This document shows, piece by piece, positions 12,756 to 14,424 of a stretch of DNA of 64,000 nt. Each line of letters opens with the position of its first letter. Position 1 is the first letter of the stretch. The DNA comes from Paramagnetospirillum magnetotacticum MS-1. GTDB taxonomy: Bacteria; Pseudomonadota; Alphaproteobacteria; Rhodospirillales; Magnetospirillaceae. Location of the stretch: contig NZ_JXSL01000020.1 of assembly GCF_000829825.1 (NCBI RefSeq), forward strand, positions 124,001 to 188,000. The letters are read 5' to 3'. The position numbers and the translations under genes are program-made. Below the pieces are notes generated by a model that was not told the DNA's origin, did not search any database, and saw nothing but the letters and a program-made list of their open reading frames with translations.

Positions 12756-12898
12756 TGGTGCGGGCCCTGTGGCTTCTTGCGCTATAGGTGGGGAAAGAGG
12801 CCTGGGGAAACGGTCTCCCGTTCCCATGCTAAGGTGCTGAATTCACACAATTAAGCTCTGGACGAATATGAAAATTTCGCAGGAGGGATATTTTTCCC

Positions 12899-12926
12899 TT
12901 TTCATCGACCGAAAACGGCGTATATA
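12899..12926 (+). promoter_or_regulatory. Possible sigma-70-type promoter of the ornithine decarboxylase leader
   Basis: TTTTCA (12899-12904) and TATATA (12921-12926) are separated by 16 bases in an AT-rich patch. A start near 12933 would give a leader of roughly 360 bases before the decarboxylase ATG. The -35 match is only partial. Confidence 0.35.
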
Positions 12927-12929
12927 GCG

Positions 12930-13285
12930 GTTTCAGGTGAGACGTACAGCGCACGTGCCTCTGGCCCCCAAGGGGGTTTAAGTAACGACGTCCAAGGCGT
13001 CTTCTGGGTGCAAGCGGGGTGAAAGCCCCCGGTGCTTGGAGGAAGTAGCTATGAACGTGGTGACTCGGCACTCGCTGTCGATTGACTCGCATCCCCTCTT
13101 CGCGGAAAGCGGTTTCCGTCCCCGGCAGGCATGGGCCCTGCTGTGGGTCGATACGCGAAGTACCTCCCGGCGGATCTGACGGCTTCCCGAATTGCCGTCA
13201 CTGAAACGTCGTCTCGCCGTTTGAATGCGGTGGGCCGAACAGAGAGAGTTTTCGGGTCTTTTCCATGACCCGGCCGTTCGAGAGG
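12930..13285 (+). ncRNA. speF-type leader RNA upstream of ornithine decarboxylase
   Basis: This 538-base gap has no ordinary gene but is full of paired segments. CCAAG pairs with CTTGG around a GGGGTGAAAGCCCC hairpin (12990-13040) immediately before an upstream ORF. TGACGGC (13177-13183) pairs with GCCGTCA (13194-13200). CGGGTC (13253-13258) pairs with GACCCG (13267-13272), just before the decarboxylase ribosome binding site. A long conserved leader (speF motif) upstream of ornithine decarboxylase is established in alphaproteobacteria. Position, length and downstream gene fit it. Boundaries are approximate and a covariance search was not possible. Confidence 0.7.
13051..13179 (+). CDS. Upstream ORF (leader peptide, 42 aa) in the speF leader
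   Basis: An ATG at 13051 is preceded by a near-perfect TTGGAGGAAG ribosome binding site. The frame encodes 42 residues starting MNVVTRHSLSIDSHPLFAES and rich in Arg near the end. The TGA at 13177 is the first base triplet of a 7-bp hairpin. The ORF is too short to be an ordinary gene, but the strong initiation signal in an otherwise structured leader argues that it is translated. The E. coli speF gene is controlled by an ornithine-sensing leader peptide of similar length. The two peptides show at most faint similarity (Arg-x-Ser, Asp-x-His). A role in attenuation is inferred. Confidence 0.55.
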   Translation: MNVVTRHSLSIDSHPLFAESGFRPRQAWALLWVDTRSTSRRI

Positions 13286-13293
13286 ATTTCGCG

Positions 13294-14424
13294 ATGACCG
13301 CGAAGATCGCCCGTTTCCTTGAGGAAGTCCGCCCCCAGACCCCCTGCGTGGTGGTCGATCTTGACGTGGTGCGCGACAATTATCACAGCCTGCGACGTTG
13401 GCTGCCGCTGGCCGAGGTCTATTACGCGGTCAAGGCCAATCCGGCGCCCGAGATCGTGCGTATGCTGACCGAGGAAGGCTCGCGCTTCGACGTGGCGTCG
13501 CGCGGCGAAATCGATCTGTGCCTGTCCAACGGCACCCCGGCCGAGCGCATCTCGTTCGGCAACACCATCAAGAAGCAGTCGGACATTGCCTATGCCTATG
13601 CCAAGGGCGTCCGGCTATATGCCTTCGATTCCGAGGCCGAGCTGGAGAAGCTGGCCCTGGCCGCGCCCGGCTCGCGCGTGTTCTGCCGCATCCTGATGAC
13701 CTGCGACGGCGCCGAATGGCCGCTGTCGCGCAAGTTCGGCTGCGAGATCGACATGGCCAAGGACCTGCTGGTCAAGGCCCGCGACCTGGGGCTCGACCCC
13801 TACGGCGTGTCCTTCCATGTGGGCAGCCAGCAGACCGATCTGAAGCAGTGGGACATCGCGGTGGGCAAGGCCGCCATGCTGTTCTCGGCGCTGGACGCCG
13901 CTGGCATCGATCTGCGCATGGTCAATCTGGGCGGCGGCTTCCCGGCCCGCTACCGCAAGGAAGTGGACGGCATCGAGCGCTATGCCGAGGCGGTCATGGA
14001 CGCCATGACCAAGCATTTCGGCAACAATATCCCCGCCATGATCATCGAGCCCGGCCGCTCCCTGGTGGGCGATGCCGGTATCTTGGAGACCGAGGTGGTG
14101 CTGATCAGCCGCAAGGGCTATGAGGACGACACGCGTTGGGTCTATCTGGACGTGGGCAAGTTCGGCGGTCTGGCCGAGACCATGGACGAGGCCATCAAGT
14201 ACCGCATCGTCACCGGCCGCGACGGCGAGGATACCGCGCCGGTGATCCTGGCTGGTCCTACTTGCGATTCCGCCGACATCCTCTATGAGAAGGCCGGATA
14301 CGAGATGCCGGTCAGCCTCAAGGTGGGCGACAAGGTGCGGATTCTCTCCACCGGGGCCTACACCACCTCCTACTCGGCGGTGAACTTCAACGGCTTCGAG
14401 CCCTTGAAGGCCTACTTCATCTAG
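13294..14424 (+). CDS. speF: Ornithine decarboxylase (fold III PLP-dependent)
   Basis: The 376-residue protein is a eukaryotic-like alanine-racemase-fold decarboxylase. It has the PLP lysine K47 in VYYAVKANP, the phosphate-binding glycine segment VNLGGGFPARY, IIEPGRSLVGDAG and the active-site cysteine C324 in AGPTCDSADILYE. It makes putrescine from ornithine; some alphaproteobacterial members also accept lysine. ATG 13294 follows a GAGAGGA site. An ORF extension upstream lies in the structured leader and is not used. A strong terminator follows at 14455. Expression is probably controlled through the long leader RNA. Confidence 0.93.
   Translation: MTAKIARFLEEVRPQTPCVVVDLDVVRDNYHSLRRWLPLAEVYYAVKANPAPEIVRMLTEEGSRFDVASRGEIDLCLSNGTPAERISFGNTIKKQSDIAYAYAKGVRLYAFDSEAELEKLALAAPGSRVFCRILMTCDGAEWPLSRKFGCEIDMAKDLLVKARDLGLDPYGVSFHVGSQQTDLKQWDIAVGKAAMLFSALDAAGIDLRMVNLGGGFPARYRKEVDGIERYAEAVMDAMTKHFGNNIPAMIIEPGRSLVGDAGILETEVVLISRKGYEDDTRWVYLDVGKFGGLAETMDEAIKYRIVTGRDGEDTAPVILAGPTCDSADILYEKAGYEMPVSLKVGDKVRILSTGAYTTSYSAVNFNGFEPLKAYFI

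Follow-up and report, generated by a model that had tools for sequence, protein, structure and literature searches.

The SpeFL/orf34 system of E. coli and Salmonella speF consists of a leader ORF located before an ornithine decarboxylase gene, with a hairpin after its stop codon, and passages on it describe the ORF as needed for expression of the gene (PMC6386406, PMC8429421). Rho-dependent termination has been shown for Salmonella orf34 (PMC6386406). For the speF RNA of Agrobacterium, binding of neither ornithine nor polyamines was seen, and homospermidine is absent from the compounds listed as tested on this RNA in the 2005 report, which identified the COG0019 genes that follow the speF element as ornithine decarboxylase genes (Corbino et al. 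2005; PMC1273637). Another RNA, ar45, is annotated as an sRNA, with no function given in the passages that mention it (PMC7717549, PMC12403871), and its expression in Bartonella and Sinorhizobium is described as independent of the speF leader that comes directly after it (PMC7717549). The alphaproteobacterial odc1 (uORF-25-1) is described as an 11-residue UUG uORF beside a main UUG start codon (PMC8632094), and the spermidine riboswitch as a variant of SAM-I (PMC10853860).

We analysed a stretch of 64,000 nucleotides from Paramagnetospirillum magnetotacticum MS-1 (hereafter the window) carrying an ornithine decarboxylase gene, the leader of which contains the features collected in Table 1. The best solved relatives of the decarboxylase were the lysine/ornithine decarboxylases 5gjm and 2plj, and none of the NCBIfam models reached its cut-off for this protein; ornithine was taken as the substrate because of these relatives and the assignment by Corbino et al. 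(2005). The 42-codon ORF with its ribosome-binding site and the 7-bp perfect hairpin holding its stop codon were present as a preliminary description of the leader had reported them. The ribosome-binding stretch TTGGAGGAAG (13036-13045) was separated by 5 nt from the ATG of the uORF, and 114 nt lay between the uORF stop and the decarboxylase start. No description of this uORF was found in the open-access literature on the odc1, speF and ar45 leaders. The assignment of the leader to the speF motif, made in the same description, was not borne out: RF00518 matched neither the window at gathering score nor positions 12800-13330 at E up to 10, and a search of the whole MS-1 genome with this model gave three noise-level matches, all elsewhere. 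No Rfam family matched the window at gathering scores, and at E up to 10 positions 12800-13330 gave two chance matches to unrelated families.

Table 1. Features of the decarboxylase leader and gene, in positions of the window
Feature	Position	Strand	Basis
TATATAG, candidate -10 box just 5' of the element	12921-12927	+	named by eye
5' RNA element: P1 GACGT..GGCGTC, inner stem, invariant GCACGUGCC and AACGACG	12941-13005	+	model R1
Pyrimidine tract after P1 (UCUUCU, with GGGUGC), predicted partner of the uORF ribosome-binding site	13000-13011	+	folding
uORF Shine-Dalgarno sequence GGAGGA	13038-13043	+	purine-rich site precedes all 51 family uORF starts, by selection
Leader-peptide uORF, 42 codons and TGA (MNVVTRHSLSIDSHPLFAESGFRPRQAWALLWVDTRSTSRRI)	13051-13179	+	ORF listing, family comparison
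Codons for the conserved segment QAWALLWVDT	13126-13155	+	alignment of 35 sequences
Invariant rare codon pair CGA-AGU (Arg-Ser, R43-S44)	13156-13161	+	35 of 35 aligned, also L020
Small hairpin TCC-CGGC-GGA within the last uORF codons	13165-13174	+	82.4% of cells paired
7-bp perfect hairpin TGACGGC...GCCGTCA, 10-nt loop; stop TGA as its first three bases	13177-13200	+	sequence, covariation
Second hairpin CGGGTC...GACCCG, 6 bp, before the decarboxylase	13253-13272	+	sequence; weakly conserved
Ornithine decarboxylase, Orn/DAP/Arg decarboxylase 2 (COG0019-like) type	13294-14424	+	PF02784 and PF00278

Of 60 relatives, 37 had matches to the leader DNA, and within the family 52 of 55 genomes did, the own genome counted. 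The same decarboxylase lay downstream at the family loci, except at L028, where the contig ended first, and at the extra places L040 and L095. An ATG uORF preceded by a Shine-Dalgarno sequence was located at the corresponding place in 51 of the 52 family loci examined. A peptide pattern taken from the window copy alone had found no relative, because the middle of the peptide varies, whereas anchoring on the start codon and the ribosome-binding site did. The 51 uORFs were thus selected by these two features and not by frame or peptide, and CGAAGT occurred 38 times within 200 nt of their start codons. Thirty-six of these occurrences shared the frame of the uORF, lying 93, 99, 102, 105 or 126 nt from the start codon; the two out of frame were that in L029 and the second one in L079. 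The conservation of the frame, which the preliminary description had proposed to check by alignment across Rhodospirillales, held within this family, and by this comparison the uORF is more than a chance ORF and is conserved as a reading frame.

In 35 of the family uORFs, a single type of peptide (type A) was encoded, starting with MN...AR(H/Q).LS and with QAWALLW.D.RS(T/P) towards its end. Type A leaders were also carried by Magnetospirillum sulfuroxidans (L203) and M. aberrantis (L228), the decarboxylases of which were 84.8% and 85.6% identical to that of the window. Selection of the 35 rows was by the motif [WA].D.RS, so that W, D, R and S are partly set by the selection and their codons are not; L010, truncated at the element by the end of its contig, and L020, which the motif failed to pick up, were left out, the latter being included in the count of 38 occurrences above. 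W and D of LLW.D were invariant in these motif-picked rows, while the codons at D41 were GAC in 18 and GAT in 17 sequences. All four valine codons appeared at V42 and both serine codon families at S40, and silent variation was found at A34 and L38 as well as at D41 and V42.

The coding signal was evaluated by column shuffles in 20 representatives that shared less than 85% identity. Out of 500 shuffles, 17 scored as high as the true frame over the whole ORF; the number was again 17 in the first ten codons, 14 in the core, 15 in the middle and 265 in the last six codons, which showed no coding signal. Differences in the type A core were 0.275, 0.319 and 0.296 at the three codon positions, with no concentration at the third. 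As far as these alignments indicate, the coding signal of the type A uORF is present but moderate, and its last six codons are probably constrained as RNA. The apparent peptide might be a mere by-product of an RNA structure that spans the 3'-terminal half of the uORF, which would fit the missing signal in the last six codons, their folding into hairpins and the invariance of CGAAGU as nucleotides. Such an origin appears very improbable to us, as it agrees poorly with the in-frame spacing of CGAAGT in 36 of 38 occurrences and with the silent variation at D41, V42, A34 and L38.

The codon pair CGA-AGU consists of two very rare codons, since CGA was used once and AGT seven times among the 3097 codons of seven window genes. 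The distance from CGAAGT to the stop codon was exactly 21 nt in 33 of the 35 type A uORFs. One explanation is classical attenuation by aminoacyl-tRNA supply, in the manner proposed for Salmonella orf34 and arginine, with the ribosome waiting at CGA, or at the later CGG-CGG codons present in the window copy, when charged arginine tRNA is short. The invariance of CGA in 35 sequences and its rarity in the window genes agree with this explanation, as does the link between arginine supply and ornithine. However, there is a single CGA and no run, and several peptides outside this type lack CGA-AGT, although the pair recurs in L111, L112, L129 and L154; attenuation of this kind seems quite improbable. 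An in-frame AGT codon was also considered as a universal feature of such uORFs and rejected: it was found within the last 14 codons of 48 of the 51 family uORFs and in only 26 of 66 uORFs of named genomes, and on these counts we claim an AGT codon near the uORF end as a feature of the own family only.

Covariation in the two hairpins around the stop codon was examined in 27 of the 35 type A sequences, leaving out L007 (duplicate stretch), L027, L028 and L033 (divergent), and L016, L017, L019 and L026 (longer loops misaligned by MAFFT). In the hairpin that begins with the stop codon, 95.8% of the cells were paired and four of seven pairs had changed on both sides. The small hairpin had changes on both sides in two of four pairs, its outer pair being broken in 16 of 27 sequences. 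For both hairpins jointly, the observed values of pairing, double changes and covariation score exceeded those of all 500 shuffles, whereas doubly changed pairs were as numerous in 7 shuffles and pair types in 174; every slid version of the pairing scored lower. Minimum-energy folding placed a base of the stop codon in a pair in 48 of 51 leaders (mean z of -1.6), but such pairing is frequent by chance in GC-rich RNA, so the argument rests on the covariation, which indicates that the stop-codon hairpin is kept by compensatory changes. The second hairpin, proposed in the preliminary description as well, was present, although its conservation was weak: the longest perfect stem in this region averaged 4.9 bp, compared with 4.3 bp in shuffled sequences, and 18 of 49 leaders had a stem of 6 bp or more.

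The most conserved DNA of the leader was the 5' RNA element, not the uORF. A covariance model, R1, was built from 29 of 37 trimmed elements, and it matched the own genome at G000:C20:136941-137005 with E of 2.4e-16, relatives from the genus and the family being among its 29 rows. At E up to 0.01, where the weak end includes chance matches, R1 matched at 102 places, distributed over 81 of the 385 alphaproteobacterial genomes searched. With the stricter limit of 1e-4, it matched 12 of 299 genomes of a phylum sample, all 12 alphaproteobacterial, the share of other classes in this sample not being given. The exact pattern GCACGTGCC-N6..36-AAGYAACGACG was present in 21 of the 385 class genomes, and no row matched it in reversed form. 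When the 91 matches were aligned, 97.1% of the cells paired and 7 of 11 pairs had changed on both sides, above all shuffles, in an alignment that was fitted to R1 and is hence biased towards the model. RNAalifold found the inner stem, with no double changes, in the first unrefined alignment of the element, and an automatic count of P1 (139 of 153 with some 5-bp match) was too permissive to serve as evidence. Just upstream of the element, TATATAG may represent a -10 box; a scan for the sigma-70 consensus called no promoter for the leader, TATATAG included. The block 12860-12927 (CTTTTCATCG...GCGTATATAGCG), alike in several family leaders, may be a promoter, and the consensus scan did not call it.

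Genes downstream of the element were assigned at 91 loci, comprising 90 of the 102 R1 places and L043. Ornithine decarboxylase was found at 50, a paralogous decarboxylase at 22 and homospermidine synthase at 4, accounting for 76 of the 91. Among the other 15 loci, four hold 122 nt or less downstream and eight are weak matches below 28 bits; the remaining three are L124 with a glutamine amidotransferase-like ORF, L146 with nothing recognised, and L153, in which the element precedes a pair of spermidine genes encoding S-adenosylmethionine decarboxylase and spermidine synthase. The pattern loci among the matches listed for the named genomes, 118 in number, were followed by ornithine decarboxylase (61), the paralog (29) or homospermidine synthase (14) in 104 cases. 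Of the 14 homospermidine synthase matches, 7 began at a distance of 0.7-1.7 kb, and one decarboxylase match began at position 950 downstream; in 11 of the 14 loci with no such gene, the downstream sequence available is at most 458 nt long. The MS-1 genome itself contained a second copy of the element (L126; contig C27:514635-514694, minus strand), followed by a gene for a protein matching solved homospermidine synthases (5e-175). Its uORF has 17 codons (MFVTCTTGVIPEILHSM) and ends with AGT-ATG-TGA.

Directly after P1, a pyrimidine tract was present, UCUUCU in the window and often CCUUUU elsewhere. Folding predicted base pairing between this tract and the uORF ribosome-binding site, at a probability above 0.5, in 130 of 149 leaders; for the family the figure was 41 of 51, the predicted pairing failing in the other 10. 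When the stretch from the element to the ribosome-binding site was shuffled, the predicted rate was 102 of 745. The start of the uORF is thus predicted to be masked by the tract, and among the present results this modelled pairing points most directly to control of the uORF by the element. In leaders other than that of the window, the tract could also be part of a terminator. Direct masking of the decarboxylase ribosome-binding site was considered as well. In 33 leaders folded with a simulated ribosome, the average openness of the decarboxylase start rose from 0.30 to 0.38 with the ribosome at AGU and to 0.36 at the stop codon, and this modest change leaves direct masking unsupported. No intrinsic terminator-like site was found in the window leader, and Rho-dependent termination, as in Salmonella orf34, is a possibility for it.

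Other clades had other peptides at the same place. The GTVPSP peptide, found in nine members of the own family (L029, L030, L032, L034, L089 and L091-L094), showed differences of 0, 0 and 0.644 at the three codon positions, the rows being motif-chosen and the first two positions thereby forced. The.GR.NP.SS peptide, from six genomes of four families, gave 0.163, 0.074 and 0.541, again with motif-chosen rows and positions 1 and 2 largely forced. Leaders of the decarboxylase paralog encoded peptides starting with MPL (14 sequences, chosen by the start only), with differences of 0.325, 0.23 and 0.473 in the last 14 codons, and nine of them carried AWDGHDLVV near the end. In L209, L210, L211, L214, L223, L237, L242, L268 and L274 this end reads (I/V)AWDGHDLVV, followed by R/K, F and N/D. 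Leaders of homospermidine synthase included uORFs of 14 codons ending with Arg and the stop codon (L096, L097, L098, L244, L258 and L264, e.g. MFGPVLAPPPRIER), and those of L101 and L227 had uORFs without this form. The leader peptides are, as these alignments suggest, conserved within clades and dissimilar between them. No short ATG uORF was found by the rule used in 52 of the 118 listed pattern loci. In several loci of clades with other peptides, the stop codon was again located at the foot of a hairpin, e.g. UAG-ACGGUCGC with GCGAUCGUCUA. Several GTVPSP leaders have a long hairpin starting from the UAG stop, and L030 keeps a similar hairpin with the stop further in.

These peptides bear on an explanation in which the peptide itself does not matter: the element would be a riboswitch or attenuator, and the uORF only a spacer whose translation protects the RNA from Rho. 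Conservation of the element far exceeds that of any peptide, TTTT follows P1 in 41 of the 118 listed pattern loci and 56 of the 91 R1 loci, and the type A core has no concentration of differences at third positions, all of which agree with a spacer, as does the reported independence of ar45 from the downstream speF leader in Bartonella and Sinorhizobium (PMC7717549). Against a spacer, amino acids are kept within clades while third positions vary, GAC and GAT are about equally used at D41, and the frame of the uORF is kept at five start distances. We judge this explanation unlikely.

The reading that we consider reasonably probable is a two-stage control region for polyamine genes, in which the element gates the uORF and a ribosome at CGA-AGU or at the stop codon sets decarboxylase expression. 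It is based on the frame kept at five distances, the silent changes at D41, the invariant CGA-AGU, the fixed stop position and the covarying hairpin, together with the predicted masking by the tract, the peptides of other clades, the polyamine-gene neighbours and the precedent of orf34/SpeFL. The comparisons show that frame, codon pair, stop position, hairpin and element are conserved; we infer that the uORF is translated, that ribosomes pause on it, that ornithine or a polyamine is the ligand, and in which direction control runs. At the first stage, folding of the element would set how often the uORF is translated, through pairing of the tract with the ribosome-binding site. At the second, the nascent QAWALLW.D. 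would fill the exit tunnel while the ribosome meets CGA-AGU, 21 nt before the stop codon at the hairpin base. Pausing there, or slow termination at the stop, would keep the hairpin open and shield the downstream RNA, which may alter transcription into, or translation of, the decarboxylase gene. More tentatively, and with rather less chance of being correct, alphaproteobacteria may employ double sensing, in which a riboswitch-like RNA opens or closes the ribosome-binding site of a clade-specific arrest peptide. Homospermidine is a major polyamine in many alphaproteobacteria, and it is a candidate ligand of such an element. Under the two-stage reading, the uORF, the ar45 'sRNA' and the leader region whose speF RNA bound none of the metabolites tested would unite as one leader system of polyamine genes, and the sensor of alphaproteobacterial polyamine status would become a testable question. 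The occurrence of several dissimilar conserved peptides at one genomic position would also be useful for studying the origin and replacement of arrest peptides.

Among known RNAs, ar45 (RF02347) of Rhizobiales is close to the 5' element, sharing the CGCACGUGCC...AGCAACGACG core, the stems and the place before the decarboxylase. Model R1 recovered four ar45 copies (L042, L043, L045 and L046) with E of 2e-6 to 2e-4. In contrast, Rfam gave no ar45 match at gathering score in the window or in 20 and 14 other loci, and ar45 has a long U-run as its own 3' end. In L042, L043 and L045, ar45 was immediately followed by speF, the two being consecutive pieces of one decarboxylase leader. From these matches, the ar45 'sRNA' looks like the Rhizobiales form of the 5' element, and it may be the attenuated 5' end of the decarboxylase leader transcript. 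The Rfam speF leader itself, matched at E up to 0.01 in 10 of 190 class genomes (4 over the cut-off), precedes the same gene family and directly follows ar45 where both match, but its covariance model had no match at or near the window leader. The part of the preliminary reading that stood was the in-frame uORF, the stop hairpin, which covaries, and, as the better reading, an independent peptide; the part that did not was membership in Rfam speF. The 5' element, its predicted pairing to the ribosome-binding site of the uORF and the second genomic copy ahead of homospermidine synthase had been absent from that reading.

The window leader shares with odc1 a conserved uORF and structured RNA before ornithine decarboxylase (PMC8632094), whereas its uORF has 42 codons, starts with ATG and lies 114 nt off, a distinction drawn from the published description of odc1 and not from peptide letters. 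The spermidine riboswitch is likewise RNA control of polyamine genes, but is a SAM-I variant (PMC10853860), while the window had no Rfam match. As to a classical amino-acid attenuator, with its run of regulatory codons and its terminator/antiterminator, the window leader has one invariant CGA and, in this copy, a later CGG-CGG; no terminator-like site was found in it. Enterobacterial SpeF is a decarboxylase of another type than the PF02784/PF00278 enzyme of the window. A resemblance of the window peptide to SpeFL, seen by eye, was rejected, as it rests on S.D.H, which is not kept in the relatives. Three leader peptides including that of the window matched no Pfam family at E up to 10, PF10940 (DUF2618) included, in a search with short queries of limited sensitivity; this agrees with the earlier view of the peptide as not clearly resembling SpeFL and perhaps an independent solution. 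The short ORF in an ornithine decarboxylase leader is common to SpeFL/orf34 and the window, and the passages on the former describe no 5' RNA element (PMC6386406, PMC8429421), whereas the uORF of the window is preceded by one. By analogy, the window leader would work like that of E. coli SpeFL and, with homology not found, an independent solution is the better reading.
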